This document shows, piece after piece, positions 809 to 39,570 of a DNA stretch of 39,570 nucleotides. The notes under the pieces are model-generated. The model ran no database searches, was not told the DNA's origin, and was given only the letters and a program-made list of their open reading frames with translations. The translations under genes and the position numbers were made by a program. The first letter of the stretch is position 1; every line of letters starts with the position of its first letter. The DNA comes from Peptococcaceae bacterium CEB3 (GTDB taxonomy: Bacteria > Bacillota > Desulfitobacteriia > Desulfitobacteriales > Desulfitobacteriaceae), in NCBI GenBank assembly GCA_001029295.1, contig LDXJ01000031.1, positions 1 to 39,570 on the forward strand. Reading direction: 5' to 3'.

Positions 809-873
809 CTCGATTAAGTTCCAGGCAATTACAATTTCTTGTGCTTTCTCCCTCACCTCCTGTTTTTAGACAC

Positions 874-1015
874 ACAAAAAGAAGCCCTTACGGGCTTCTA
901 TTTTGTGGCAATATTTTAGGGTAGGCTTCGCCCCACCCTGTTTTTCTCATTTTATCGCGGATTTGGGCCGTTTACAAGCCTTTTTTGGGCCTTTTTACAA
1001 AATATTTTTAGCAAA
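874..1015 (-). promoter_or_regulatory. Promoter-leader cassette, copy 1 (upstream of tnpB)
   Basis: Read on the minus strand: an A/T-rich stretch, -35 TTGTAA (972-977), a 17-bp spacer, -10 TAAAAT (949-954), an invariant hairpin (919-938), then a terminator stem GAAGCC..GGCTTC with a T-run (876-898). It stands in front of tnpB copy 1. Six other copies are scattered through the window. The part of the hairpin reading GAAGCC can also pair with GGCTTC of the terminator, so an attenuator is plausible; no ligand family was recognised. Confidence 0.75.
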
Positions 1016-1073
1016 ACTTTTGGGACGCGCTTTCATCCCCGGAATCAAATTCCGAGGTTTTCCCGCGCGTATC

Positions 1074-2366
1074 CTATAACGGGCTAACCAGCTCTGTCTT
1101 AACCGGCTTGGCTAGATCTTTTAGCTTAATATAAACCCCCTTGTTTTGAATACCCTTAACGGCATATTTCTGGTTGTTAAAGAGTACCGTATCACAGGGC
1201 TGGTACGCATATCTCGTTTTGCGAATTCTGCGCTGCCCCTTGGACATTTTCTTTCCCCTGTAAATACGCAAGTTTGGACCATTCAGGTTGATGTTGCGGG
1301 CCCTTCTACCTGAAAACAACTCTCCACCAGAAACTTTCTCACCTGTCCGGATGTCGATATACCGGGCATCGTAGAACAACTCCAAGCTACGGTTATTCCG
1401 CCGAATCTGCTTAATCTGTAGCGGATCAACTCGCTGCTGGCTGGTTCCCCCAGCAATACAAAACGCATCATTCACATGGGATTTTTCAAGCCCCGACTCA
1501 ATACGCAATGTCTTTGTGATATGCCCGTAGGTGTGTTCACAGCCAATAGCATTAACCAGTTTCCACCGCACTACGCTCATAAATGTCTCCGGCTTATAGC
1601 TCTTGACTTTCGGCTCCCATCCATACAGGAACTTGCCGGATTGGTGGTTTGCCGGAGTATGGCATTTAGTGCAAAGCGTGATCAGATTCCCTGGCCGGTC
1701 AGTCCGGTCCCCTTTCCAGAACCCAATATGATGGACCTGAAGGACTTTCTCTTTGGCTTTGTTCTTACAGTCCGGGTTTTGACATTGGTGATTGTCCCGG
1801 TGAAAGATATATTCCCGCAGGTTCCAAAAACCGTACTGTTCTCCCTGTTGGTATCCTTTGCCTTCGATGTTAGGGTTCTTAATCTCCTGGATATCAAAGG
1901 CGGCAACTTCTACGACAACTTTGCTTATGGGAACCAGGGCAGAAATCTTGTCTACCAAGCGGATATGAGTATCAAGCTTGTTCTGTAGACTGGGTGCCAG
2001 CCAACCTTCGGGCTTTTTCCTGTTGTTAAACCTTGCCTTGCGGTAACGGAGTCTGCTCCTCCGTTGTCTGCGGTACCTTGATCGTTCCTTGTTTCGTTCG
2101 ACCTGGCACTGAAGAAGACTGAGTTCTCCGGCGATCCATTCTTTTGCAGCATTGACGGCTGAAAAACCCACATTACTATACCCGGAATCCAATCCTAACG
2201 TAGCCGGTTGTGTGTACTCCGTCGTTTCATACATAAGCTGGATAGTGAAGGGCTTGGCTTTGACAACTTTGGCCTTTCCCTCTTTGAGCATCCTTCTGAC
2301 CTTCCCATGCCGTTCTGTTGGAATAAGCGGTTTTCCTTCTTGGGATAACACATAGACCACATTCAT
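1074..2366 (-). CDS. iscB: IscB RNA-guided nickase/nuclease (RuvC + HNH)
   Basis: A 430-residue IscB, the OMEGA-system ancestor of Cas9. N-terminal PLMP-like motif (KPLIP, 12-16); RuvC-I LGLDSG with Asp60; arginine-rich bridge helix RSRYRRQRRSR (96-106); RuvC-II VVEVAAFD with Glu153; HNH domain with two CxxC-type pairs (Cys195/200, Cys232/235) and VHHI (His212/213); RuvC-III HVND with Asp300; then the C-terminal target-adjacent-motif domain. All catalytic residues are present, so it is probably active. ATG 2366 was chosen because it gives M-N-VVYV, matching the usual IscB start; ATG 2369 overlaps it. The omega RNA is directly upstream on the same strand. Confidence 0.92.
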   Translation of the reverse strand: MNVVYVLSQEGKPLIPTERHGKVRRMLKEGKAKVVKAKPFTIQLMYETTEYTQPATLGLDSGYSNVGFSAVNAAKEWIAGELSLLQCQVERNKERSRYRRQRRSRLRYRKARFNNRKKPEGWLAPSLQNKLDTHIRLVDKISALVPISKVVVEVAAFDIQEIKNPNIEGKGYQQGEQYGFWNLREYIFHRDNHQCQNPDCKNKAKEKVLQVHHIGFWKGDRTDRPGNLITLCTKCHTPANHQSGKFLYGWEPKVKSYKPETFMSVVRWKLVNAIGCEHTYGHITKTLRIESGLEKSHVNDAFCIAGGTSQQRVDPLQIKQIRRNNRSLELFYDARYIDIRTGEKVSGGELFSGRRARNINLNGPNLRIYRGKKMSKGQRRIRKTRYAYQPCDTVLFNNQKYAVKGIQNKGVYIKLKDLAKPVKTELVSPL

Positions 2367-2673
2367 CATCTCCTCGAAGAGATAAGTCTGCCTTACGGCA
2401 GTCGGTCCACATTGCCAATGTTAATGCCGGGTTTAAGCGGACATCACTTCTCCTACCCTCAGAGATGTTTAAACACCCGCCGCAGAGCCTGGAACGTGTG
2501 GAGGATCCCAGGGTGCCTATCTATTCCGGCTTAACGTAGTGGTTCGCTGTCCCCTTTCGGTAAACATCCCGACCACTAAGGCATAATCAACCGGGCCTGA
2601 GGGCGTATAAGCCTGGCTTACACGTTTCCCCAAGCCCCCACTTCAAACGCCGCTAGGCGTTAAGTGGGGGTAG
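2367..2673 (-). ncRNA. IscB omega RNA (HEARO-type) scaffold
   Basis: About 300 non-coding bases directly upstream of iscB, rich in stems. The first is CCCCCACTT..AAGTGGGGG with an inner AACGCC/GGCGTT stem (2637-2671), followed by several GC stems, for example GACTGCCGTAAGGCAG at about 2390-2405. Position, strand and size match the IscB-associated omega RNA (HEARO RNA). In this family the guide is the 5' flank, here about 16-20 bases from 2674 upward, which lie in the 3' end of the DUF5131 gene. The 5' boundary was inferred from the left-end stem. Confidence 0.75.
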
Positions 2674-3432
2674 TTGACCCTCCAATTCCGGCATGACCAC
2701 CTTTTTCCCATTGACAATTTTTTGCTTGTAGAAGAAAGGCGTTCCTGCAGAAATACATTGATCTCTTAGCGATTCTACCCAGCCTTCATCCATTGGCCTG
2801 GCATTAGGCCCAGATTCGGCACCAACAATCACCCAGTTTAGTTTATTTGAAAATATGTTTGGTATGGCTTGACAAACGGATTTTAGATTAATCCCGCATC
2901 CCTCCAATACATTCATGGTTGTGTATTTATTAAATTGTACCGATGTTAAATCCACCAGCTCCAACAACGGCTCTGCGCTAATAAATCTCACTGTCGCCGC
3001 CGGTGTGCGCAAAAGCAGTGGAATCCGTTCGTCGGCGGCAGCTTGATTCTCCACCGAAGTACCGATCCACGCATTGGATGGAAACACGAAATCAGCATAC
3101 CTTTTGGGATTTTTCGTTAGGAAAAGGAATGTATGCTGCGGACACTGCTCTACCACCTGCAAAACTTGCTTAATCCACTCTGTCGGCACCCAATCGCCAA
3201 AGAGATCCCCCATGTCCGAAACGAAAATGCGAGAAGGTCTTTTGAGCTTCAATGGCTCCGTTAATCGCCCTGGATGAAAACTTGGCGCAAAACCGTTGGG
3301 AAATGCCTTGCTCCCTTTGAAGCGTTGAGCTATACGGCGAGCAAAGCAATAGGTACATCCATGGAAACATCCTGTTACCGGGGACCAAGTATGGTCACAG
3401 TAGGGGATTCCGTATGGGCCTTGTTTGTTCAC
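2653..3432 (-). CDS. DUF5131 (phage Gp37/Gp68 family) radical-SAM-like protein, 3' end replaced by IS sequence
   Basis: Matches the DUF5131/Gp37Gp68 family common on phages and plasmids: CDHTWSPVTGC start, CxxxCxxC cluster (CFHGCTYC), FVSDMGDLFG, WIGTSVENQ, ISAEPLLE, WVIVGAESG and FFYKQ. The cysteine triad is of the radical-SAM Fe-S type; the substrate is unknown. The GTG at 3432 follows AAGGAGG, and its GTGA overlaps the dam stop, so the two genes are translationally coupled. The IscB element is inserted at the 3' end: the last six residues and the stop are read from its left-end stem. The usual family tail after the LDG-like motif is therefore missing; the catalytic part is intact. Confidence 0.8.
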   Translation of the reverse strand: MNKQGPYGIPYCDHTWSPVTGCFHGCTYCFARRIAQRFKGSKAFPNGFAPSFHPGRLTEPLKLKRPSRIFVSDMGDLFGDWVPTEWIKQVLQVVEQCPQHTFLFLTKNPKRYADFVFPSNAWIGTSVENQAAADERIPLLLRTPAATVRFISAEPLLELVDLTSVQFNKYTTMNVLEGCGINLKSVCQAIPNIFSNKLNWVIVGAESGPNARPMDEGWVESLRDQCISAGTPFFYKQKIVNGKKVVMPELEGQLPPLNA

Positions 3433-4284: not shown

Positions 4285-4500
4285 CTATCCTTCCACCCAT
4301 CCTCCTTCGTCTTCTTTCCGTTTTTCCGCACATCCTTGGCAGAATTTTGCTGGCTTACCCTTGAGCCTAGTTGTTCTTTCCCAGTATGTTTCTCCTGGGC
4401 TAATTCCCTTGCAATCCATGCTGCCCAGGCATATGTGGTATGTGCGCGCCTTCTTCTGCGTCCAAAATATTCCTTCGGGTTTTCTTGAAAAATAGGCCAT
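4285..4500 (-). CDS. Small cysteine-rich, probably zinc-binding protein
   Basis: 71 residues starting MAYFSRKPEGIFW, with Cys pairs in CLGSMDC and CQGC, and a charged tail. It reads like a minimal zinc finger; no family was recognised. The ATG at 4500 has AAGGAGGAAAATCGACC before it. It is the first gene after leader cassette copy 2 and palindrome 4523-4536, and it ends at the start of dam, so it shares that transcript. Its role is unknown; a DNA- or RNA-binding accessory is a guess. Confidence 0.65.
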   Translation of the reverse strand: MAYFSRKPEGIFWTQKKARTYHICLGSMDCKGISPGETYWERTTRLKGKPAKFCQGCAEKRKEDEGGWVEG

Positions 4501-4522
4501 GGTCGATTTTCCTCCTTCCTGC

Positions 4523-4536
4523 GGTATGCGCATACC
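4523..4536. promoter_or_regulatory. 14-bp palindrome GGTATGCGCATACC
   Basis: A perfect palindrome between the cassette terminator and the first gene. The same or a near-identical palindrome is at 12313-12326, 16476-16488 (degenerate) and 36642-36655, always at the same place relative to the cassette. It is a candidate operator for a dimeric regulator. Confidence 0.6.
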
Positions 4537-4550
4537 CCTTTTTAGGCAAA

Positions 4551-4690
4551 CGAAAAGAAGCCCCCGCGAGGGCTTCCATCTCTTACCATAATTTAAGGGT
4601 AGGCTTCGCCCCACCCCTTATTTACTTCATTTTAGCGTTTTTCGGGGTGTTTCGCAAGCGATCTTGGCCCTTGTGAAAAAATGTTTTTGC
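4551..4690 (-). promoter_or_regulatory. Promoter-leader cassette, copy 2 (Zn protein-dam-DUF5131 operon)
   Basis: Minus strand: A-rich upstream block (4661-4690), -35 TTGCGA (4652-4657), 17 bp, -10 TAAAAT (4629-4634), invariant hairpin 4597-4616, terminator stem GGAAGCCC..GGGCTTC with TTTTCG (4557-4577). It would make a 75-80-nt RNA if terminated, or read through into the operon. Confidence 0.78.
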
Positions 4691-4751
4691 TCTCATACGT
4701 TCCTTTCTCCTTTTCCTTGAATTAACTGCCCCTACAAGGTATAATATACAT

Positions 4752-4876
4752 ACTAAAGGCTGGGATGTTGCTAGCATCCCAGCCTGCACAACCGGGCCGC
4801 AGTAAGCGGCTGATAGGTGGACTTGGGAAGCAAAAGTAGCCTCCGTTGTCAAGTGGATGGGCTACTTTTGCTTTTC
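4752..4876 (+). ncRNA. Antisense antitoxin RNA of type I TA module 1
   Basis: Plus-strand promoter TTGAAT (4717-4722), 17 bp, TATAAT (4740-4745); start near 4752. The transcript holds a strong stem (GGGATG..CATCCC) and ends at a stem AAGCAAAAGTAGCC..GGCTACTTTTGCTTTTCC (4828-4877). That stem overlaps the last codons of the toxin gene on the other strand, so the RNA pairs with the toxin mRNA 3' end, as in txpA/RatA-type modules. Confidence 0.72.
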
Positions 4877-4960
4877 CTTAGAATCCTTGGCAAACCTGAG
4901 TATGGACAAAACTAACGCCGCAGACGATATTGCGAGCGTTAGCCATTGATATACGCTCAT
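4862..4960 (-). CDS. Holin-like type I toxin peptide, TA module 1
   Basis: 32 residues: start MSVYQWLTLAIS, one hydrophobic helix (about 7-22), and a charged tail ending KEKQK. This is the layout of the putative holin-like toxin family (Hol_Tox; BsrG/TxpA type), which damages the membrane. The ribosome site is GAGGGGGGTGCCGGGCA before ATG 4960. The mRNA probably starts from an extended -10, TGGTATACT (5061-5069 on the minus strand), giving a leader of about 95 nt. Module 3 encodes a peptide of the same length. The toxin role comes from family likeness. Confidence 0.72.
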   Translation of the reverse strand: MSVYQWLTLAISSAALVLSILRFAKDSKEKQK

Positions 4961-7575: not shown

Positions 7576-7682
7576 GATTATAGAACGTGCGCGGGAAAAC
7601 CTCGGAATTCGATTCCGGGGATGAGAGCGCTTTCCTCAAAAAATCTCATGCACATAGTCAGTATTTGTGGTATAATTAAACT

Positions 7683-10245: not shown

Positions 10246-11175
10246 TTAGCCGGATGAGGGCCGGTACACCTTTCTCTCCAGCGATGACACTCTGGCGGAG
10301 AGTGTCCCCTCCTCTTCTGCCTGAGCCTTGTCGAAGTCGAACATGCGCGAGTCGATCATATCCAGGTGGTGCAGGAGTTCGGCTTCTTTGAACATGGGCC
10401 GCTTGGGACTGCCCCACTCGGGTGTTTGGTGGTGGGAGAGGATCATGTGCTGCAAGAGCAGCTTCTTTTCAGTGTCCAAGCCGGTTAGGTGTTCCAGTTC
10501 CGCAAGCCCCAGGGAAATATGCCCGAGCATTTCTCCTTCCAGACTGTACTCGGTGCCCAGGCCGGTTGCGTCTGTGCTGAGTTCGCGGACTTTGCCGATG
10601 TCGTGGAGGATGATCCCGGCGTACAGGAGATCCGTGTTGCACGGATAGACGCTCGTTAGTTTTTCGGCGGCAAGGAGCATGGTGCTGATGTGCTGGAGAA
10701 GGCCGCCCATGTAGGAGTGATGGTACGTTTTGGCGGCTGGATAGTACAGAAGGCGGTCTTTGTATTTTTGCAGGACTGCCGCAACCGCCGCATGAAACTG
10801 TTCGTCCCGAATGGCTTCTGCGAACCCGCTGACGATGGGCCACATGCGATCCGGCGGCGTGGGGGCCGAGGGGATGAGGGATTGCGGCTCATATGGATCG
10901 TTATCTGTCGCCTTGCGCAGTCTGTTCAGCTTGAGCTGGAGGCTGCCTTTGTATTCCTGGACCAGGGCCTCGGCCTTCACGATGTCCCCCCGCTTTGGCT
11001 GTTCGCCCCGGAGGACTTCGGGGATGTCCCAGGCTTTGGCGTTTATCTCGCCGCTGGTATCGACCAGGAGCATGTCGAGATACTTTTTCTTGGTTTCGCG
11101 GGTTTCCTTTTCGGCCATGTCTTTGACGGCAAAAAAGCCGGTGACAAGTTGGTCTCTCTGCAAATCTTTAATCAT
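10246..11175 (-). CDS. yhaM: YhaM-like 3'-5' exoribonuclease (OB fold + HD)
   Basis: 309 residues. N-terminal OB-fold-like region (1-90: KKYLDMLLVDTSGEINAKAWD, KRGDIVKAEALVQEYKG) and an HD domain with TYHHSYMGGLLQH, AGIILHDIGK and LSHHQTPEWGSPKRP. This matches the length and motifs of Bacillus YhaM, which trims RNA or single-stranded DNA from the 3' end. ATG 11175 follows AAAGGAGATTGCGA and overlaps the upstream gene by 8 bases. A copy on a mobile element, between an unknown protein and an Mrr nuclease, is unusual. Confidence 0.92.
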   Translation of the reverse strand: MIKDLQRDQLVTGFFAVKDMAEKETRETKKKYLDMLLVDTSGEINAKAWDIPEVLRGEQPKRGDIVKAEALVQEYKGSLQLKLNRLRKATDNDPYEPQSLIPSAPTPPDRMWPIVSGFAEAIRDEQFHAAVAAVLQKYKDRLLYYPAAKTYHHSYMGGLLQHISTMLLAAEKLTSVYPCNTDLLYAGIILHDIGKVRELSTDATGLGTEYSLEGEMLGHISLGLAELEHLTGLDTEKKLLLQHMILSHHQTPEWGSPKRPMFKEAELLHHLDMIDSRMFDFDKAQAEEEGTLSARVSSLERKVYRPSSG

Positions 11176-12265
11176 TCGCAATCTCCTTTACATTCTTCGC
11201 GCTTTGCTTATCGGGTCGCCCCGGAAGCCGGACTTGGCGGCAATGAGGACAAATCTCGAAGGGCAACGTATTCTGAGCCATGATGATTTTTTGGATTTCC
11301 CATTTTGTTGTTATCTTTTGCAAAAGGGGCTCTATCGCTTTTTCTTCGCAGCCATCGACCAAGGGATTCAACCACAGTAGCAAGTCGCTGACGTGGGTGT
11401 CTCCCGCGTATATGGCTGCCCCGATCATATCTGCGCCGGTGTTGGTACCCGGCCAGATGCTATGGAGGGAAACTACTGCTCTTATTTTCCCTGCAACGCC
11501 AAGAGAACTCGTCTGCGGTATTTCTTCTATGAAAAAATCCGGCATTTCGTTTTTCGTTTCTCCCAAAACTATTTTTGCGGCTATTTCTCTTTTTTTCAGG
11601 TACAAGAGCATGGTCCTCATATTCCGAAGGTATCGGCTGTACATGAAGGCATACATGTGTGTTTGAAGTGTTTGCAGGTGTTCCGGATCGTCCTCTTCTT
11701 CGCTCATTGTATCGAAAATCTCTTTCATTTGCTTGGCAACATCCGGAGAGGTTAACCACTCGGAAAACGAGAAATATTTGATTTCTATTGCCCCTGCCGA
11801 CGCTTGTTTCGAGTGCGAGACAATCTGCTCGGCCAAGGTCCATGCTTCCAGGTCGGGCCACCAGCAGAGCCGTCTTTCCGCGCTGGGTTGTTTTATTTGG
11901 TCTTTTAGCGAGCGACGTTCTTGGCTGTATCGATCCGGCAAACAGGCGGCAATGATAACCTTGTTCATCCTCCAAACGCCTACCGTAGGTAGGGTTTCCC
12001 TGCGTTGCTCTTTCGCCGGAAAGATATACCACCTCAGCTCGGCAATGTCTGCAAGTGCTTCTTCCGGAGCAGCGGTTGTTGCGTCTTCGTCGATGGTTGC
12101 ACTGAGAACTTTCCAGATACCGTTGTGCTTTTGTTCTGCAAGCAGGTGAATGGCGACTGTCGCGTTTTGCAGGTAGTTCACGGTAAGGTCGAAGATGGTC
12201 ATTATCCCCCCGGAGTGGTGTTGGTACTGGACAGAATATTTTTGGGTTTCGGCTGGTGTGTACAT
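11168..12265 (-). CDS. Unknown protein with C-terminal CPHC motif
   Basis: 365 residues; no family was recognised. Mostly mixed alpha/beta with a Trp-rich stretch (RRLCWWPDLEAWTLAEQ), a long middle helical part (KQMKEIFDTMSEEEDDPEHLQ, MYSRYLRNMRTMLLYLKKR), and a C-terminal ICPHCRQVRLPG that could bind zinc. There is no signal peptide or membrane helix. ATG 12265 is preceded by GGAAG at good spacing. It is the first gene after cassette copy 3 and palindrome 12313-12326, and overlaps yhaM by 8 bases, so it is co-expressed with YhaM and the Mrr nuclease. Confidence 0.75.
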   Translation of the reverse strand: MYTPAETQKYSVQYQHHSGGIMTIFDLTVNYLQNATVAIHLLAEQKHNGIWKVLSATIDEDATTAAPEEALADIAELRWYIFPAKEQRRETLPTVGVWRMNKVIIAACLPDRYSQERRSLKDQIKQPSAERRLCWWPDLEAWTLAEQIVSHSKQASAGAIEIKYFSFSEWLTSPDVAKQMKEIFDTMSEEEDDPEHLQTLQTHMYAFMYSRYLRNMRTMLLYLKKREIAAKIVLGETKNEMPDFFIEEIPQTSSLGVAGKIRAVVSLHSIWPGTNTGADMIGAAIYAGDTHVSDLLLWLNPLVDGCEEKAIEPLLQKITTKWEIQKIIMAQNTLPFEICPHCRQVRLPGRPDKQSAKNVKEIAND

Positions 12266-12312: not shown

Positions 12313-12326
12313 GGTATGCGCGTACC
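12313..12326. promoter_or_regulatory. Palindrome GGTATGCGCGTACC, copy 2
   Basis: Thirteen of 14 positions as at 4523-4536 (one base changed, so one mismatch in the palindrome), in the same position between cassette terminator and first gene. Confidence 0.58.
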
Positions 12327-12340
12327 GCCCCGAAAAAAGG

Positions 12341-12480
12341 GTAAACGAAAAGAAGCTACCGTTTCAGCAGCTTCCATATGGTTCCAAGTATTTTGGGTAG
12401 GCTTCGCCCCACCCCTTATTTAGTCCATTTTAGCCCTTTTCGGGGTATTTGGCTAGTGTTTTTAGGTCTTGTGAAAAAAT
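12341..12480 (-). promoter_or_regulatory. Promoter-leader cassette, copy 3 (unknown-yhaM-mrr operon)
   Basis: Minus strand: AAAAACATTTTTTCAC upstream block, weak -35 TAGCCA (12450-12455), 17 bp, -10 TAAAAT (12427-12432), invariant hairpin 12395-12414, and terminator stem GAAGCT..AGCTTC (12352-12374). The terminator stem sequence differs from the other copies but keeps the pairing. Confidence 0.75.
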
Positions 12481-12774
12481 GTTTTTATCTGAGTCATTGT
12501 CTAGGCTGCGCTGCTTCGTCTGAGCGTCTTGCATACCTGCCGTGTTTGGCAGTATAATGTGCGTAAGAAGGAACGCGAGATAGTTGCATATCCCGCGCTC
12601 CGGGTACAACGAACCGCAGATTGCGCGGCTTATAGGTGGCAACGAAAGCAAAGTAGCTCCCGTGCTAGGGTTGGGCCACTTTTGCTTTCCTGAGTGTTCT
12701 GTGGCAAATTTCAGTATCCGTATGACTAATGCCGCAACCGAGATTGCGAACATTAAGGCGTGATACGTACTCAT
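12430..12774 (-). CDS. Holin-like type I toxin, TA module 2, stop codon lost (extended to 114 aa)
   Basis: Residues 1-32 (start MSTYHALMFAIS, hydrophobic helix, tail SGKQK) align with the 32-residue toxin of module 1. Codon 33, TAG in module 1, is TGG here, so the frame runs a further 82 codons antisense to the antitoxin RNA and into cassette copy 3. ATG 12774; extended -10 TGGTACAAT (12886-12894, minus). The extension is probably not selected protein and may have inactivated the toxin; alternatively it is a new C-terminus. Confidence 0.6.
   Translation of the reverse strand: MSTYHALMFAISVAALVIRILKFATEHSGKQKWPNPSTGATLLSLPPISRAICGSLYPERGICNYLAFLLTHIILPNTAGMQDAQTKQRSLDNDSDKNIFSQDLKTLAKYPEKG
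12565..12690 (+). ncRNA. Antisense antitoxin RNA of TA module 2
   Basis: Plus-strand promoter TTGCAT (12529-12534), 18 bp, TATAAT (12553-12558), ending at the stem AAAGCAAAGTAGC..GGCCACTTTTGCTTT (12644-12690). Promoter and first 60 bases differ from modules 1 and 3 but match the remnant at 16668-16755. Confidence 0.65.
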
Positions 12775-15542: not shown

Positions 15543-15556
15543 TAACCTCAATTACA

Positions 15557-15642
15557 ATGGCAGCCTGGCAGTCATAGCTTAAAGCCTTAGACCCATAGCT
15601 TTGCGCCCCCGTCTTTCGGCGGGTTTACCTTTATCATTTGCT
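15557..15642 (-). ncRNA. c-di-GMP-I (GEMM-I) riboswitch A
   Basis: Minus strand core: AAAGGTAAACC, a CGCC-GAAA-GACGG stem with the receptor tetraloop, GGGCGCAAAGCTATGGGTCT, AAGGC, then TATGACTGCCAGGCTGCC. These are the conserved blocks of the class I c-di-GMP aptamer in its clostridial form. An extended -10 (TGGTAATAT) lies just upstream. Controlled gene: the secreted protein at 14612-15055. Confidence 0.92.
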
Positions 15643-16318: not shown

Positions 16319-16475
16319 GGATTCCTTCCCCCTCTCTTTCGTTTGAGCGAGCGTTTCATTTCAGCCGCAGCAGGGTCGCCGAACTTCGGTGTCTCCGGCA
16401 GCCTTACTGATAGCGGCCCTAAGCCATCTGATGTACGGCTGGTGTGTAGGATTTATCACCCCCCCTTCCCCTGGT

Positions 16476-16488
16476 GGTACGCGCACAC
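16476..16488. promoter_or_regulatory. Degenerate palindrome, copy 3
   Basis: GGTACGCGCACAC, same position relative to cassette copy 4 as the perfect palindromes elsewhere but with symmetry broken at several positions. Confidence 0.4.
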
Positions 16489-16500
16489 GTTTCCGGGCAA

Positions 16501-16640
16501 ACGAAAAGAAGCCCTTTTAAGGCTTCCACACGTTTCCAGTTATTTAGGGTAGGCTTCGCCCCACCTGCTATTAGGTCTATTTTAACGCTTTTTGGGGCTT
16601 TAGACCAGCTTTTTTAGGGCTTATGAAAAAATATTTTTGC
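16501..16640 (-). promoter_or_regulatory. Promoter-leader cassette, copy 4 (chimeric gene)
   Basis: Minus strand: AAAATATTTTTTCAT block, -35 TGGTCT (16602-16607), 17 bp, -10 TAAAAT (16579-16584), hairpin 16547-16566 with one changed base, terminator GGAAGCC..GGGCTTC (16508-16527). Confidence 0.72.
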
Positions 16641-16667: not shown

Positions 16668-16755
16668 TTGCATACTGACCTTGTTTTGCAGTATAATATG
16701 GGCAAGAAGAAACGCGAGATACTGGTAATATCCTGCATTTCGGGCACAACGAAAA
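16668..16755 (+). ncRNA. Orphan antitoxin promoter and 5' part (TA module 4 remnant)
   Basis: TTGCAT (16668-16673), 18 bp, TATAAT (16692-16697), then about 55 bases homologous to the antitoxin RNA of module 2. The match ends near 16755: toxin gene, terminator stem and toxin promoter are gone. It keeps its place directly upstream of cassette copy 4. Confidence 0.6.
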
Positions 16756-20171: not shown

Positions 20172-20186
20172 TAACCTCAATTACAA

Positions 20187-20271
20187 TGGCAGCTTGGCAG
20201 TCATAGCTTAAAGCCTTAGACCCATAGCTTTGCGCCCCCGTCTTTCGGCGGGTTTACCTTTATCATTTGCT
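20187..20271 (-). ncRNA. c-di-GMP-I (GEMM-I) riboswitch B
   Basis: Same aptamer as copy A with one visible change in the core (GCCAAGCTGCC instead of GCCAGGCTGCC). The -10 region reads TGGCAATAT. Next gene downstream is the Amidase_6 protein at 18250-19443. Confidence 0.92.
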
Positions 20272-22762: not shown

Positions 22763-22778
22763 GCTAACCTTAATTACA

Positions 22779-22864
22779 ATGGCAGCTTGGCAGTCATAGC
22801 TTAAAGCCTTAGACCCATAGCTTTGCGCCCCCGTCTTTCGGCGGGTTTACCTTTATCATTTGCT
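22779..22864 (-). ncRNA. c-di-GMP-I (GEMM-I) riboswitch C
   Basis: The aptamer core is identical to copy B; the promoter-proximal part (TGGTAATAT -10) is like copy A. Next genes downstream: SpoIID/LytB protein and DUF4829-like lipoprotein. Confidence 0.92.
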
Positions 22865-24744: not shown

Positions 24745-25896
24745 TTATGCGGCTGTCGTTCTTCTCCGCGTCTTGGGCTTGAGTATTGTTTTTGCCCGTT
24801 TCTCTTCGCTCAGTCCGCTGATGGCCTGGGCAATGTTGTCGGCGGCATTTGCGTCAATGTGCTTAACCTTTCCACACCGGGGGCACGTGTACCACCGGCC
24901 CGCCGGGCGGCTGGTTCTGACTTCTCCGCACCGGCTGCATGTGAGACTGGTTAACTCCGGATTAACCAACTCCACTTCGATTCCTGCCAAAGCCGCTTTG
25001 TATTCGATGAACTGCCTGAGCTGGAAGAAGGCCCAGGAGTGGAGACTCCGTCCCGCGTCTTTGCGCTGCTTTTTCCGTTGGCTTTTCGTCCACCGGGCAC
25101 CCCGCAGGTCTTCCAGGCGGATGACGCTGACTCCATGCGCTTTGGCAAACTCTATGATCCTGCGGCTGATGGTGTGGTTGATGGCCATGATCCAGCGGTG
25201 CTCTTTGTTCCCAAGTTTCCGAAGAGCTTTGTGCGCCCCCTTCTTCTGGAGTTTTTTCCGCAGTTCGGCGTAGTGTCGCCGGACGTAGGCAAGTTCCGCC
25301 CCGCTGAAGAACAAGGTAGATCCGAGGATACTTGCAACCGCAAGGTCGATGAGCCCCAGGTCCACGCCCATGTATTTCGGCGGCTTCTTCTCCGCTTTCA
25401 CGCTGACGGTGAGCGCCAGGTGAATGTACCACTGTCTGCCGCATTTGATGAGCTGCGCCGTCCCTTGTTTGGCTTGACCGGAGAGAAGAAGTTCCAGATA
25501 CTTAATTTGGTACTTCTCTACTTGAATGGGCACGCCCACCCGTTTCTCCAGGGTGGGAAAGGAGACTTTCCAGGCGGCTCCGCCGTCCTGCAGGGTCTCT
25601 TTCTCTACCCGGAAATTCTGGTTGTTGAAGTCCGGCCAGAGCCGCTTGAATGATTTGGCATTTTTCTTGGCTTCGATGTCCCGAATGGCCTGATTTAGTA
25701 CAATGGCTGGAAGTGGCTCTGTGTACAGTTTGGCATCCGCTGATGACTTTGGTCGCATGGGCTTCTCCACTCCAAGATACCGATTAGCAAAATCGGTTGT
25801 TCTATCGGCCATGGTTTGGTACATGTCTTGCTTCGTCTTCGTGGGCTCGAAGAGCTTGAGCTTAATTGTGACAACCTGTTCGGTATTTTCTTCCAC
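24745..25896 (-). CDS. tnpB: TnpB RNA-guided nuclease with zinc finger (copy 2, intact)
   Basis: 383 residues. RuvC-I GVDLGLIDLAV, RuvC-II IRLEDLRG (Glu), zinc finger CSRCGEV..CPRCG (from about 320), RuvC-III HIDANAADN (Asp about 348). All catalytic and zinc residues are kept. GTG 25896 follows GAGGAGGTGAAAAC. The last two thirds are nearly identical in DNA to copy 1, while the first 75 codons are only about 80% alike, so one part was homogenised by recombination. No transposase is attached. Cassette copy 5 lies upstream. Confidence 0.93.
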   Translation of the reverse strand: MEENTEQVVTIKLKLFEPTKTKQDMYQTMADRTTDFANRYLGVEKPMRPKSSADAKLYTEPLPAIVLNQAIRDIEAKKNAKSFKRLWPDFNNQNFRVEKETLQDGGAAWKVSFPTLEKRVGVPIQVEKYQIKYLELLLSGQAKQGTAQLIKCGRQWYIHLALTVSVKAEKKPPKYMGVDLGLIDLAVASILGSTLFFSGAELAYVRRHYAELRKKLQKKGAHKALRKLGNKEHRWIMAINHTISRRIIEFAKAHGVSVIRLEDLRGARWTKSQRKKQRKDAGRSLHSWAFFQLRQFIEYKAALAGIEVELVNPELTSLTCSRCGEVRTSRPAGRWYTCPRCGKVKHIDANAADNIAQAISGLSEEKRAKTILKPKTRRRTTAA

Positions 25897-26030
25897 GTTT
25901 TCACCTCCTCTCCACATGAAGAAAAGCCGCCGCATAACGCAACGACTTTCCTTGATTTAGTTTTCGGTACCTAGACAATTATGGCTTCTGAATACGGTTT
26001 GGCACTCACCTCCTGTTTTTGAGCACACAA

Positions 26031-26170
26031 AAAGAAGCCTCGAAAGGCTTCTTTGCCTTGCTATGAATTTAGGGTAGGCTTCGCCCCACCCTGTATTTAC
26101 TCCATTTTAGCCCTTTTTAGGGCAATTGACAAGCATTTTCAGGTCTTGTGAAAAGATATTCTTGTTCTTC
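26031..26170 (-). promoter_or_regulatory. Promoter-leader cassette, copy 5 (tnpB copy 2)
   Basis: Minus strand: TTTTCACAAG block, -35 TTGTCA (26127-26132), 17 bp, -10 TAAAAT (26104-26109), invariant hairpin 26073-26092, terminator GAAGCC..GGCTTC + TTTTT (26034-26052). The best consensus promoter of the set. Confidence 0.78.
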
Positions 26171-26226
26171 AGTGCTCCTTTCTCTTTTTCCTTGAATTAA
26201 CGGCCCCTACAAGGTATAATATATAT

Positions 26227-26342
26227 ACTAAAGGCCGGGATGTTGTGAGCATCCCAGCCTACACAACCGGGCCACGATGAGCGGCCATATAGGGTTTCCG
26301 AAAAAGTAGCTTTTCCGGTTAGGGGTGGGCTACTTTTTCCTT
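26227..26342 (+). ncRNA. Antisense antitoxin RNA of TA module 3
   Basis: Promoter TTGAAT (26192-26197), 17 bp, TATAAT (26215-26220); ends at stem GAAAAAGTAGC..GGGCTACTTTTTCC (26299-26340), which overlaps the toxin stop on the other strand. Closely related to module 1 RNA. Confidence 0.72.
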
Positions 26343-26428
26343 GCCATGTTGTAAGCGAACTGGAGTATCAGAACCACTAATGTTGCAAAGGCAATCATTA
26401 GGGTTAATGCTTGATACCACTGGTTCAC
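26330..26428 (-). CDS. Holin-like type I toxin peptide, TA module 3
   Basis: 32 residues from GTG 26428: NQWYQALTLMIAF start, one hydrophobic helix, basic tail MARKK. Same length and layout as module 1 but different sequence, so the peptides have diverged while the module stayed. GGAAGGGGGTGAGGCC lies upstream. Extended -10 TGGTATACT at 26510-26518 (minus). Confidence 0.72.
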   Translation of the reverse strand: MNQWYQALTLMIAFATLVVLILQFAYNMARKK

Positions 26429-31119: not shown

Positions 31120-31333
31120 CCCCCAACTTTTTCCTCTTGAGTCTATTCTACCACAGGCTCGCGACATTTTCATGCAAAGCCACCCCTTTCTTAATTTTAC
31201 GCAAAAAACTACAATAGAACACACTTGTTCGTCCCTAAGTTCCCCTCCAGATCCCCCCTGAACTCACCAGCCTACGGAGAATTGTTTTGCCCGTCTGAAT
31301 CACTCCAACCACTCCTTCCTCATTTTAGGCACA

Positions 31334-31380
31334 CAAAAAGAAGCCTCAATCGGCTTCCTTTTCTTACCACTTATTTAGGG
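31334..31380 (-). promoter_or_regulatory. Promoter-leader cassette, copy 7, truncated
   Basis: Only the terminator part (GGAAGCCGATTGAGGCTTC + TTTTTGTGTGCC, 31340-31358) and the bases up to CCCTAAATAAG remain; hairpin and promoter are missing beyond 31380. It lies upstream of the surface protein gene. Confidence 0.6.
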
Positions 31381-36170: not shown

Positions 36171-36623
36171 CTATTGAATTTCGTCTTCTTGGATTTCTTC
36201 GCATCTCGCTTCCGCTCCTATCTCCGCCAGCGCCCGTTCCCAGCCCGTTAACACGGACGCATCGGAGAGAATTTTCGGATGTTTCTTCTCGGCCATCCGC
36301 CGAATTCTCTTTTGCAGTTCGGGGACGTTTCTCAGGGTTTCCAGAATTGTCCCTGGATCATAGAAGTGTGCTTTGCCGCCGTCTCCGTATTTCTTGTACG
36401 CATGGTGCCACTCCTCGTAGCAAAAGTGCTGGCGCACCCAGGATGTGGATACGCCAAGGTGCTTTGCAAGAGCGAGTGTTTGCACCAAGCCCCTAGCTTT
36501 AGCCAGAGCAAAGTTGCACGACTCCCAGGAATGTTTTTGGGACAGGACGCGCCGCTCTTCTTTTTCGCCCAATTCCCGGCTGGGCTTGGGCCACCAAAGG
36601 ATCGGGTGCATACAGTTAGCCAA
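36171..36623 (-). CDS. Helix-turn-helix protein, first gene after cassette 6
   Basis: 150 residues from TTG 36623 (GGGAGGAAC 4 bases before; ATG 36611 is the alternative). A middle HTH, LALAKHLGVSTSWVRQHFCYEEW, is followed by a basic C-terminal part (VPELQKRIRRMAEKKHPK) and an acidic tail. Probably a DNA-binding regulator or maintenance protein of the element. As no replication protein was found, it is one candidate, but nothing specific points to that. Confidence 0.65.
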   Translation of the reverse strand: MANCMHPILWWPKPSRELGEKEERRVLSQKHSWESCNFALAKARGLVQTLALAKHLGVSTSWVRQHFCYEEWHHAYKKYGDGGKAHFYDPGTILETLRNVPELQKRIRRMAEKKHPKILSDASVLTGWERALAEIGAEARCEEIQEDEIQ

Positions 36624-36641
36624 AGTTCCTCCCCCCTTCCG

Positions 36642-36655
36642 GGTATGCGCATACC
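36642..36655. promoter_or_regulatory. 14-bp palindrome GGTATGCGCATACC, copy 4
   Basis: Perfect palindrome identical to 4523-4536, between the cassette 6 terminator and the HTH gene. Confidence 0.6.
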
Positions 36656-36662
36656 GTTTTTC

Positions 36663-36800
36663 GGCAAACGAAAAGAAGCCCCCAAAAAAAGGCTTCCATG
36701 TTCTTCCAAGTATTGAGGGTAGGCTTCGCCCCACCCCTATTTGAGCCTATTTTACCCCTTTTTGGGCATTTTGGCAATGGGTTTAGGAAAATTTCTTAGT
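36663..36800 (-). promoter_or_regulatory. Promoter-leader cassette, copy 6 (HTH operon)
   Basis: Minus strand: A-rich block, -35 TTGCCA (36772-36777), 17 bp, -10 TAAAAT (36749-36754), invariant hairpin 36717-36736, terminator GGAAGCC..GGGGGCTTC + TTTTCG (36675-36697). Not preceded by a TA module. Confidence 0.78.
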
Positions 36801-36857: not shown

Positions 36858-37208
36858 CTAAATTCCTTCGTACCAACCCGGCATACACCGAAAATACAAA
36901 GACATGAATAGCCTCACAGAAAACAAGATGAGAGATACCTTTTTCAGCACTGGCTCATTTGATACAAGTTGCGCAACCAGTACGATTAAGACAACAGCTG
37001 CTATTATCCATTTCACAAGCCGTCTTGTTGTGTAGATCCAGATTATCGACGGCACAAACAAAAGCAGAATGTCCAGCCACAGAAAAACATCGACAAGGAC
37101 TTTATCTTGAATCATTTCTGCGCGAAAAAACCGGACAGTACCAAGGGCAGCACCAAAATAATGGCTAGATGTTAGGAACTCTACCGGCCAGTTGAAAATA
37201 TTCCTCAC
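36858..37208 (-). CDS. Small membrane protein coupled to the TadZ-like gene
   Basis: 116 residues from GTG 37208, which overlaps the upstream stop (GTGA); GAGAAGGTGA lies before it. Three hydrophobic helices (VFLWLDILLLFVPSIIWIY, WIIAAVVLIVLVAQLV, VSLILFSVRLFMSLYF). No family was recognised. Confidence 0.65.
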   Translation of the reverse strand: MRNIFNWPVEFLTSSHYFGAALGTVRFFRAEMIQDKVLVDVFLWLDILLLFVPSIIWIYTTRRLVKWIIAAVVLIVLVAQLVSNEPVLKKVSLILFSVRLFMSLYFRCMPGWYEGI

Positions 37209-38377
37209 CGCGATTTCACCTTCTCGCAAATGATGTCCCTTAATCGCATCGTCTGTACATCTTCCCTGCTCAGGCACACCGTTTTCTCATCTAACTCTCC
37301 TGGGGTCCCGTCTGCCATGAGCACGTTAAAATCAACCCCTTCCGGCGGTGGCAGCGTCCCCCCGTCTACCACAACTACCTGCCTGGGTGTCCGGATGTGA
37401 AACAAGGCAACACTCCACATTTCGGCAGCCTCTGCCGCCTCAATGGGCTCCCGTATTGTCCACACATTCAGGTTTCCTTTGGCATAATACTTCTCCGGTG
37501 GTATGCCGGGTGTCCGATTCTGCCACGAGCATTCCCATCCCGGACTCAGGCATTCGTACTCACTTGCCAGACTCGGATGTACCAGGTTCCCGTCCAGCAG
37601 CAGCACTGGCACTGATTCAGCTATATCGTTGGCAAACTGAACCGCCGCATAAGTGACACCTAGGCCGGGAACACTTCCCCAAAACCAGATAACACACCCT
37701 AACAGCGCTTTCGGATCGGCTGTGCTTTCCGGACTGTCCTCGTCTTCCCAGCACAGTTCGGCATCAGGCTCATCCGGCTTTTTCCTTGGGAGATGTATTT
37801 TCGACACAACCGAACTAAAATCCGGGAGTTTTACTTCAACGTGCGGCAGTTGCGGCAGTTTGGGCAGACTCATAGTCTTCGGCTGAGTTGGTTGCGACAG
37901 CTTCGGTGCCGCCGGAACCTCCTGAATCCTCGGCTTTTCCACATGATCCAGAGTGCCTTGAATCTGCGTGTTCACGTCATAGTCCGAGTAGGTTTTTGGG
38001 TGGCTGATCCAATACTCCAGCGTGTCTATGCTGTAGCCTTTGTCGCTGTCAATGAAATACATGTCGTAGATGGAATAGGTTAAGAGCTTGGCTATTAGAG
38101 ATTCGTCCCTTTGCAGATCATCAGAGAAAATGACAATCAGACGCAGATGGGGCAGGTTTCTTCGGACTCTTCCAAGGGATTCTATAATCTCCCGCTTAGT
38201 CATGACTCCGGCTTGTCCGTCCACAATGGCGATTTCCGCGTGGACTTCTTTTTTCTCGGAGAAGTCGGCAAACTGCGTTAGCGAATAGTCCCATTCGGCA
38301 ACGGTGTGTCCGGCATCCTCCAGGATCTGCCGAAGCTGCTCGACGTACTCTTCCTCATACACTAAATGAATGAGCAT
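37205..38377 (-). CDS. TadZ/CpaE-like P-loop ATPase with receiver-like N-terminus
   Basis: 390 residues. The N-terminal part (1-130) is receiver-like (HLVYEEEYVEQLRQIL, AEIAIVDGQAGV, LRLIVIFSDD), followed by a Pro/Lys-rich linker and a SIMIBI ATPase domain with deviant P-loop GSVPGLGVTYAA (about 235-250; the usual Lys is missing) and VPVLLLDGN. TadZ/CpaE proteins place Flp pili or conjugation machines at the pole. The lost lysine suggests weak or no ATP hydrolysis. ATG 38377 follows GAAAGGATTAAAAAGCA. No TadA/CpaF or TadB/C is in the window. Confidence 0.68.
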   Translation of the reverse strand: MLIHLVYEEEYVEQLRQILEDAGHTVAEWDYSLTQFADFSEKKEVHAEIAIVDGQAGVMTKREIIESLGRVRRNLPHLRLIVIFSDDLQRDESLIAKLLTYSIYDMYFIDSDKGYSIDTLEYWISHPKTYSDYDVNTQIQGTLDHVEKPRIQEVPAAPKLSQPTQPKTMSLPKLPQLPHVEVKLPDFSSVVSKIHLPRKKPDEPDAELCWEDEDSPESTADPKALLGCVIWFWGSVPGLGVTYAAVQFANDIAESVPVLLLDGNLVHPSLASEYECLSPGWECSWQNRTPGIPPEKYYAKGNLNVWTIREPIEAAEAAEMWSVALFHIRTPRQVVVVDGGTLPPPEGVDFNVLMADGTPGELDEKTVCLSREDVQTMRLRDIICEKVKSR

Positions 38378-38658: not shown

Positions 38659-38880
38659 TTGACATCCTCCCCGCTTTAAAAAAGCGAGGATTCCCTGGAA
38701 TTCCGTGCCCTCACGGGTTCACGCCAGGGTTCGGTCGGGTTTCGCGTCCGCGCGTACATTTCTGCCGCCCTTCATTCGCTCTCCCATTGGGGCCGTGCCA
38801 AACGGCCCGCCCCGCCAGGTTCAAGGGATCACCTGCCCTCTACCCTGCCGGGCGGCAGCCCTGTTGACCAGGCTGCTAAG
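38639..38880 (-). ncRNA. reRNA 3' part, right end and guide of TnpB element copy 1
   Basis: Same GC-rich stems as 24524-24744, ending in GATGTCAA at 38659. Guide expected at 38639-38658 (GAGTATTTTGGGGAAAATAA), which is the 5' part of the interrupted gene. Confidence 0.65.
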
Positions 38881-39570
38881 TTATGCGGCTGTCGTTCTTC
38901 TCCGCGTCTTGGGCTTGAGTATTGTTTTTGCCCGTTTCTCTTCGCTCAGTCCGCTGATGGCCTGGGCAATGTTGTCGGCGGCATTTGCGTCAATGTGCTT
39001 AACCTTTCCACACCGGGGGCACGTGTACCACCGGCCCGCCGGGCGGCTGGTTCTGACTTCTCCGCACCGGCTGCATGTGAGACTGGTTAACTCCGGATTG
39101 ACCAGCTCCACTTCGATTCCTGCCAAAGCCGCTTTGTATTCGATGAACTGCCTGAGCTGGAAGAAGGCCCAGGAGTGGAGACTCCGTCCCGCGTCTTTGC
39201 GCTGCTTTTTCCGTTGGCTTTTCGTCCACCGGGCACCCCGCAGGTCTTCCAGGCGGATGACGCTGACTCCATGCGCTTTGGCAAACTCTATGATCCTGCG
39301 GCTGATGGTGTGGTTGATGGCCATGATCCAGCGGTGCTCTTTGTTCCCAAGTTTCCGAAGAGCTTTGTGCGCCCCCTTCTTCTGGAGCTTTTTCCGCAGT
39401 TCTGCGTAGTGCCGCCGGATGTAGGCGAGTTCCGCCCCGCTGAAGAACAGGGTAGATCCGAGGATGCTTGCAACCGCAAGGTCGATGAGCCCCAGGTCCA
39501 CGCCCATATACTTCGGCGGCTTCTTCTCCGCTTTTACGCTGACGGTGAGCGCCAGGTGAATGTACCACTG
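38881..39570 (-). CDS. tnpB: TnpB, C-terminal part (copy 1, cut by window end)
   Basis: 230 in-frame codons including the stop: RuvC-I onward, IRLEDLRG, zinc finger CSRCGEV..CPRCG, HIDANAADN. Nearly identical to copy 2 in this part. It joins to bases 1-754 if the molecule is circular. Read alone it would be an incomplete gene. Confidence 0.9.
   Translation of the reverse strand, partial: QWYIHLALTVSVKAEKKPPKYMGVDLGLIDLAVASILGSTLFFSGAELAYIRRHYAELRKKLQKKGAHKALRKLGNKEHRWIMAINHTISRRIIEFAKAHGVSVIRLEDLRGARWTKSQRKKQRKDAGRSLHSWAFFQLRQFIEYKAALAGIEVELVNPELTSLTCSRCGEVRTSRPAGRWYTCPRCGKVKHIDANAADNIAQAISGLSEEKRAKTILKPKTRRRTTAA
39288..39570. repeat. Terminal direct repeat, right copy
   Basis: Identical to bases 1-283; see the left copy. 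Confidence 0.85.

Follow-up and report, generated by a model that had tools for sequence, protein, structure and literature searches.

A probable conjugative element in a relative of Desulfosporosinus begins many gene groups with the same promoter and hairpin

Leader copies in the window

The genome of Peptococcaceae bacterium CEB3 (G000; 5.3 Mb, 64 contigs) carries several copies of one leader on the minus strand of contig C31, the whole of which (39,570 bp) was analysed here and is called the window. A sequence-only reading had described six full copies and a truncated one, all on the minus strand; the spans of model R1 and the exact matches to the P1 core bear this out, with the six full copies where that reading had placed them (Table 1). 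From 5' to 3', the leader is composed of a sigma-A-like promoter, a hairpin P1, a linker and a terminator-like hairpin P2 with a T-run. Each full copy also has an A-rich block upstream of the promoter, and about 10-15 A-rich bases separate the promoter from P1. Indeed (i) the 18-mer P1 core GGTGGGGCGAAGCCTACC matches perfectly at 6 places in the window, whereas 100 shuffles give no match, and the 20-mer is exact in five of the six copies, copy 4 having A in place of the first G; (ii) of the 17-bp-spaced promoter proposed earlier, the -10 sequence TAAAAT stands in all six full copies; and (iii) the hexamer 17 bp upstream of it, counted by eye, begins with TTG in four of the six (TTGTAA, TTGCGA, TTGTCA, TTGCCA) but is poor, also by eye, in copies 3 (TAGCCA) and 4 (TGGTCT).

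Copy 1 is followed by a TnpB gene, which runs off the contig end; copy 2 by a palindrome (GGTATGCGCATACC, 4523-4536) and by a small ORF, a Dam gene and a DUF5131 gene; copy 3 by a hypothetical gene, a YhaM-like gene and Mrr; copy 4 by a chimeric ORF, metallophosphatase-like by eye; and copy 6 by 36171-36650, a protein with a topoisomerase C-terminal repeat, and an SF1-type helicase. The palindrome GGTAYGCGCATACC or a relative of it comes after P2 in copies 2, 3, 4 and 6. Shortly past P2, these same copies and also the genomes G017, G062 and G067 have a conserved palindrome built around TATGCGCATA, and palindrome-like sequences were seen by eye in another genus; the palindrome is a possible operator or second signal.

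Table 1. Coordinates of the leader copies and of neighbouring features; positions refer to the window unless a contig is named.
Feature	Position	Strand	R1 span	Details
Leader copy 1	872..990	minus	872-947	TAAAAT within 947-954; P1 919-938; P2
Leader copy 2	4523..4668	minus	4548-4625	TAAAAT within 4627-4634; P1 4597-4616; P2 end near 4548
Leader copy 3	12313..12466	minus	12343-12423	TAAAAT within 12425-12432; P1 12395-12414; P2; palindrome 12313-12326
Leader copy 4	16474..16618	minus	16499-16575	TAAAAT within 16577-16584; P1; P2; palindrome-like 16474-16488
Leader copy 5	26025..26143	minus	26025-26100	TAAAAT within 26102-26109; P1 26072-26091; P2; heads TnpB 24745-25935
Leader copy 6	36642..36788	minus	36666-36745	TAAAAT within 36747-36754; P1 36717-36736; P2; palindrome 36642-36655
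Truncated seventh copy	31331..31380	minus		P2 half only; no P1, no promoter
Probable IS605-type end	1027..1079	minus		Just upstream of copy 1; reverse complement 88.7% to 7578-7630
Hol_Tox-like ORF	4862..4960	minus		Upstream of copy 2; Pfam 16.2 bits, below 23.3; predicted antisense promoter 4717-4745 (plus)
Hol_Tox-like ORF (by eye)	12676..12774	minus		Upstream of copy 3; no Pfam match; antisense promoter-like 12529-12558 (plus)
Hol_Tox ORF	26330..26428	minus		Upstream of copy 5; Pfam 29.3 bits (cut-off 23.3); predicted antisense promoter 26192-26220 (plus)
YhaM-like HD + OB-fold protein	10246..11181	minus		Downstream of copy 3
Protein without Pfam match	37205..38377	minus		By eye similar to G004 L103:9191-10639
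NusG-like gene of G000	C54:35336-36343			Outside the window; homology to the G004 protein

Other RNAs are predicted in the window as well. Three near-identical c-di-GMP-I-GGC riboswitches (15555-15638, 20184-20267 and 22777-22860, minus strand; 70.8-71.4 bits with Rfam) sit in duplicated stretches beside gene fragments that are metallophosphatase-like by eye. A HEARO RNA (2401-2678, minus strand, 100.8 bits) lies upstream of an ORF that is IscB-like by eye (1074-2369, minus strand), and this region has a counterpart 94% alike at C54:37999-38213.

Structure of the two hairpins

Stem letters of P2 vary while pairing is kept, as had been noticed from the window copies. Among 18 sequences (264 cells), 86.7% of the cells are paired. 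Covariation scores 0.300, whereas shuffles give 0.194 and slid registers do not exceed 0.126; the structure was drawn from the same 18 sequences, which favours it in these figures. Changes on both sides occur in 8 of the 15 P2 pairs. Furthermore, bases before the stem pair with bases past the T-run in an outer helix that wraps the T-run and that has, by itself, 73.5% of its cells paired; P2 is more than a plain terminator. Alignment A3 leaves out C54:1499 (whose leader is identical to copy 1), the truncated copy and C62, and alignment A5 leaves out the same three and C61:108165, which was found by model R2 and missed by model R3.

A terminator had been claimed for each full copy; P2 is present in all six of the window but is not constant outside it. 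Both leaders of the genome G004 are without the window-type P2: the one on contig C3 has no P2, and the one on C15 has a different terminator-like hairpin instead. P2 is also missing from one copy of the genome G001 (G001:2605893). The constant part of the leader is the promoter with P1, and P2 is optional. P1 is predicted to fold as a hairpin in all 17 variants tried (-2.3 to -14.5 kcal/mol, some of them weak). Its arms, which shift register in the alignment, vary (GGGU/ACCC, GGCA/UGCC and GUGGGG/CCCCAC, among others), and its loops are of the types GCGAAG, GUAAAU, GUGAAU, UGUAU and AAAAG.

The leader had been proposed as an undescribed regulatory RNA family, and it remains unmatched in Rfam at the gathering threshold over the whole window; at E values up to 10, the best match in 4400-4800 is sbrA with 20.2 bits, against a cut-off of 45 bits. 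The leader could alternatively be a riboswitch that senses a ligand, or an attenuator bound by a different protein such as the S1-domain or YhaM-like protein of the element; this would agree with the recurrent P1 loop, with the resemblance of P2 to an expression platform and with the S1 and YhaM-like proteins encoded by the element family. However, P1 is small for an aptamer and Rfam holds no match, and this explanation appears highly improbable.

Distribution of the leader

Models of the leader were built and searched in Firmicute genomes, along the lines suggested by the sequence-only reading, and the leader was found beyond the window in 8 of the 73 genomes of the order. In G000, the exact P1 20-mer occurs 8 times, on contigs C31 and C54 only, and diverged copies are present on C57, C61 and C62. 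With R3, a model of the promoter and P1 for which copies were counted from 45 bits upwards, G000 has 14 leader copies across these five contigs and the order has 26 (G000, 14; G001, 5; G004, 2; G017, G027, G033, G062 and G067, one each), 23 of the 26 being sequences on which R3 was trained. Three matches lie outside the training set, namely C54:1540, which nearly duplicates copy 1, C62:194396 and G001:2605893. Next in score comes G063 (33.7 bits), by eye a different RNA that resembles a fluoride riboswitch; it was not accepted as a leader.

Of 398 genomes that sample the phylum, two exceed 40 bits with R3, namely G000 and G004, both reaching at least 45, and the other 396 stay at or below 34.1 bits. 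The runners-up (34.1, 33.8 and 32.1 bits) were set aside, G106, G303 and G462 (32-34 bits) showing by eye no P1-like sequence; G106 has another hairpin downstream of a promoter-like sequence. Few candidates were scored in each genome here, and 3 of the 14 copies of G000 itself went undetected, so that weak copies may be missed. The P1 14-mer GGGCGAAGCCTACC has 15 matches in 3 of the 73 genomes, against 0 for the reversed control; the match on G004:C12 lies inside an ABC transporter-like gene and was rejected as chance. Model matches in G006, G008, G011, G018 and G017:C2 were likewise rejected, these being by eye plain terminators that miss the promoter-P1 block. Exact P1 had no match in the genome-contig collection or in viral contigs.

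Two places in G001 have unusual surroundings. The P2-less leader at C1:2605893 has a tRNA-like sequence just ahead of it and a Uma2-like gene downstream, both identified by eye. At C1:4490332, a group II intron-like sequence starts directly after P2 and is followed by a reverse transcriptase-like ORF (both by eye) and then by the TnpB family described below.

Transposons and toxin genes beside the leaders

The genes downstream of the leaders had been called unrelated, and IS200/IS605-type elements account for part of this: one TnpB family follows five copies of G000, one of the five genes being broken, and also follows the copy H3 of G001. Copies 1 and C54:1499 share 1079 bp at 99.2%, a stretch in which the leader and TnpB are accompanied by a probable IS605-type end. 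That end sequence is also present ahead of C54:5325 and of the G001 copies H1 and H3, and H2 has the inner part of it; its relative at 7578-7630 precedes ORFs that resemble tnpA and tnpB by eye. TnpB-only elements therefore seem to have captured and carried the leader, which explains part of the variety of downstream genes. Transposition probably accounts for some of the copies in G000, since several lie within or next to IS200/IS605-type elements. A TnpB family shared after five copies need not imply coordination. The repeat as a whole could also be mainly the left end of IS200/IS605-type TnpB elements that scatter a promoter, its conservation being that of a transposon end. This is quite unlikely: inspection finds neither an adjacent TnpB nor an insertion-sequence end at window copies 2, 3, 4 and 6, at the G004 copies or at the plasmid copies discussed below, and both the promoter elements and the pairing of P2 are conserved. 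A pure transposon end was thus dropped as an explanation of all copies and retained for some copies only.

Toxin-antitoxin genes seem to gather upstream of leaders. Modules of the Hol_Tox kind (type I), with a predicted cis-antisense antitoxin promoter, stand directly upstream of three window leaders (Table 1); the ORF ahead of copy 3 has TGG where its relatives have the stop codon TAG. Toxin ORFs also precede, by eye, leaders of C57 and of G001 H1 and H4, and a plus-strand promoter of that kind at 16668-16697 has no toxin ORF. In G004, gene pairs that resemble type II toxin-antitoxin systems (L103:7066-7706 and L102:7534-8054), which we take to be HigBA- and YefM/YoeB-like, are directly upstream of both leaders.

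A unit of promoter, hairpin and terminator, adjoined by a Hol_Tox-like ORF at 6 of the 21 places inspected by eye, could also be a standalone small RNA of about 80 nt, reaching from the promoter to P2 and acting in trans, e.g. as the antitoxin of the neighbouring Hol_Tox toxins. This seems very unlikely, as 15 of the 21 places are without a toxin ORF, the three toxin loci of the window have their own promoter-like sequence on the other strand (at 4717, 12529 and 26192) and P2-less copies provide no 3' end for a small RNA. The leader as antitoxin RNA of the upstream Hol_Tox ORF was rejected on the basis of these opposite-strand promoter-like sequences and of the absence of a toxin at most leaders.

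The probable conjugative element

Window positions 38661..39570 are the first 910 bp of contig C54 in exact overlap. C54 encodes (i) an integrase (Phage_integrase, 96.1 bits, C54:41930-43162) that adjoins a tRNA-Thr (C54:43281-43356), (ii) a VirB4-like ATPase (C54:11026-12840; TraG P-loop 36.2 bits, cut-off 25.8; DUF87 37.8 bits) and (iii) an SLT transglycosylase. All leaders of C31 and C54 share one orientation. From the overlap and the genes of C54, the two contigs most likely belong to a single integrative conjugative element, some 80 kb in length, at tRNA-Thr; we infer the join, which passes through a repeated TnpB copy. The coupling protein of the Brevibacillus plasmid discussed below had no match in C31 or C54, contigs in which the left end of the element was not located. 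The host is a relative of Desulfosporosinus, and the element begins many gene groups with the same promoter and hairpin. The sequence-only reading proposed that the leader coordinates an accessory element. Indeed the leader belongs to one and heads several of its operons, but not every copy marks a regulated operon of the element.

Related element genes are present on G004 contigs C3 and C15, each of which has one leader, and include a coupling protein on C15. In G067, on a contig of 4.5 kb, the leader precedes fragments of coupling-protein and S1 genes of the same family. YhaM-like genes follow leaders in G000, G001, G004 and G033, and as a fragment in G062, which fits descent of the element. 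The YhaM-like protein of the window also gives a weak match to TraI_2 (26.0 bits, cut-off 23.9), a family that overlaps the HD domain. The counterpart in G004 of the window protein without Pfam match (Table 1) is the second gene downstream of the leader on C3; we assume it to be CpaE-like.

A NusG-like gene on replicons that carry the leader

A NusG profile matches in 67 of the 73 genomes, mostly in single copy. Apart from G072, where two overlapping matches on one contig look like one broken gene, a second, divergent match was found only in G004 (C3:453106), about 16 kb from the leader. The NusG domain scores 27.7 bits in G004, 27.6 bits in a Brevibacillus plasmid and, below the cut-off of 22.2, 20.1 bits in G066. 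The G000 protein by itself has no Pfam NusG match and was assigned through homology to the G004 protein (tblastn, 4e-17, over C54:35885-36325). The family is present in 4 of the 73 genomes (G000, G004, G061 and G066) and, in the phylum sample, in 2 of 398, both previously known. A RecD2-like helicase gene follows the NusG-like gene in G000, G004 and G066. Among plasmids, relatives were found in the Brevibacillus record only; among genome contigs, in two Desulfosporosinus genomes (apparently G066 and G061), with one weak match in a Gammaproteobacterium; among viral contigs or phages, none was confirmed.

The four full-length proteins (G000, G004, G066 and plasmid) show no KOW domain at E values up to 1, and they may have a very divergent one. 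The LoaP family model NF033641 gives 21.4 bits for the G004 protein, against a cut-off of 125, and no match for that of G000. AlphaFold models (mean pLDDT 40.6 and 44.8) were of too low quality to be used, and the best match of a profile search of the PDB is a NusG (E = 0.0011).

The NusG-like gene and the leader are on one contig or replicon in three cases, namely C54 of G000, C3 of G004 and the Brevibacillus plasmid. By genome, the gene is present in 4 of 73, the leader in 8 and both in 2, with six leader-only and two gene-only genomes, the latter (G061 and G066) being fragmented, with NusG contigs of 3.2 and 8.6 kb. This co-occurrence is weak, and such numbers cannot by themselves establish that leader and NusG-like protein are linked. 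P1 could instead act in cis on RNA polymerase by RNA-only antitermination or attenuation, like HK022 put, EAR or canT of Tn916, the NusG-like protein being unrelated. Leaders in six genomes without a detected NusG-like gene would agree with this, as would the accessible parts of reports of RNA-based systems in conjugative elements, canT (PMC11658703) and conAn (PMC8955417). It is nevertheless rather unlikely: P1 is short and simple, and the leader-only genomes hold 1-5 copies, several of them beside broken or foreign genes, and these may be remnants.

The Brevibacillus plasmid

In Brevibacillus marinus NZ_CP034542.1, a tblastn search found genes for a sigma-like HTH protein, a NusG family protein and a RecD-like helicase in a row. 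The plasmid has two exact copies of the P1-like sequence GTGGSAAAAGYRCACCCATTTT, the next best site having 4 mismatches. Both lie on the transcribed strand downstream of promoter-like sequences, and a terminator-like hairpin follows one of them and not the other. Identity to the P1 of G004, by eye, is 13 of 17 bases for the copy at 81636 and 11 of 17 for that at 72636. The copy at 81636 lies between an M23 peptidase gene and a gene presumed to be CpaE-like, the same place as in G004. R3 found no leader in the plasmid, and the two copies were found by reading the intergenic DNA, so that the match is post hoc. A pattern for both P1 forms, drawn after both had been seen, matched in the searched stretches at leaders only (C31, 6; C54, 3; G004, 2; plasmid, 2), missed C54:5325 and gave a mean of 0.1 on Markov controls of the plasmid. 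In ten whole genomes, it gave 36 non-leader matches (about 0.8 per Mb), against 31 for the reversed pattern. The plasmid and G004 leaders are, on the resemblance and placing of P1, probably homologous.

Proposed antitermination and comparison with known systems

The leader, its conservation, the covariation of P2, the conjugative-element genes and the NusG-like gene on a replicon with leaders are the observed basis for the main reading, to which we give a probability of about 0.5: the leader would serve processive antitermination through a NusG paralog, with a 5' hairpin and a terminator, in a way that is LoaP-like without being LoaP. A trans-acting partner can be named, since the element, seemingly an integrative conjugative one, carries a NusG-like gene. 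Transcription would start at the sigma-A-type promoter shortly before P1 (GGGUGGGGCGAAGCCUACCC in this element), and P2, in most copies, would stop it ahead of the first gene. The NusG-like protein would recognise P1, either as nascent RNA or as the same sequence in the non-template strand, would join the elongation complex and would carry it past P2 and later terminators. The operons of the element would thereby be switched on together, and P2-less copies could nonetheless bring in the factor for use at terminators farther downstream. The transcribed strand shows no excess of terminator-like sites (plasmid, 30 vs 25; C54, 13 vs 10; C31, 18 vs 17; G004, 10 vs 13).

A wider form of this antitermination reading is more tentative, and we would not yet wager on it. 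The protein would represent a new class of NusG paralog, in which the N-terminal domain is of the NusG type and a helical tail takes the place of a recognisable KOW, recruited by the 5' hairpin GUGGG-N1-2-RAAGC-NN-ACCC; the whole conjugative element would be one antitermination regulon in Desulfosporosinus-type bacteria and Brevibacillus, and TnpB insertion sequences would have captured the leader as a promoter. Antitermination at the leaders would, if true, explain how the many operons of an element some 80 kb long are kept silent and then turned on at once, and would show how a regulatory leader spreads with insertion sequences. For most NusG paralogs, to our knowledge, no recruitment signal is known. 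Because one element carries candidates for both the protein and the RNA signal, in several natural variants, the recognition rule is directly testable.

Few antitermination systems are described for Gram-positive mobile elements in the portions of the literature that were accessible. The leader is not described in the accessible literature on conAn, LoaP leaders and NusG paralogs of conjugative elements, a weak negative given its thin coverage of subscription journals, nor in the available parts of PMC8955417, PMC12691694, PMC11658703 and PMC7593976. According to the accessible part of PMC12691694, LoaP of Bacillus velezensis requires a hairpin in the dfn and mln leaders and overcomes a NusA-dependent terminator, and its leader consists of a hairpin and an intrinsic terminator before the first gene, in two target operons. 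The present system would be alike, as far as that part goes, in its NusG-domain protein from a Gram-positive bacterium, its short 5' hairpin and its terminator, here predicted, between the hairpin and the first gene. It differs in that the loops are not UNCG, no KOW was detected, the proteins fall below the cut-off of the LoaP model and the targets are operons of a conjugative element. Element-encoded NusG paralogs serve long transfer operons of conjugative plasmids (PMC7593976, in part), and ActX is named in PMC12691694; the likeness to this ActX/RfaH type is a NusG paralog encoded by a conjugative element. RfaH, as described in the same part of PMC12691694, uses the ops DNA element and prevents Rho termination, whereas the leader studied here has a hairpin and a terminator and belongs to Bacillota. 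Processive antitermination in Gram-positive conjugative elements is also known, from the parts seen of both reports, for conAn of pLS20, where a protein and an RNA are paired at the beginning of a single operon (PMC8955417), and for canT of Tn916, described as an RNA (PMC11658703). The element of CEB3 shares that setting and differs from both in having a NusG-like gene and many copies of the leader.
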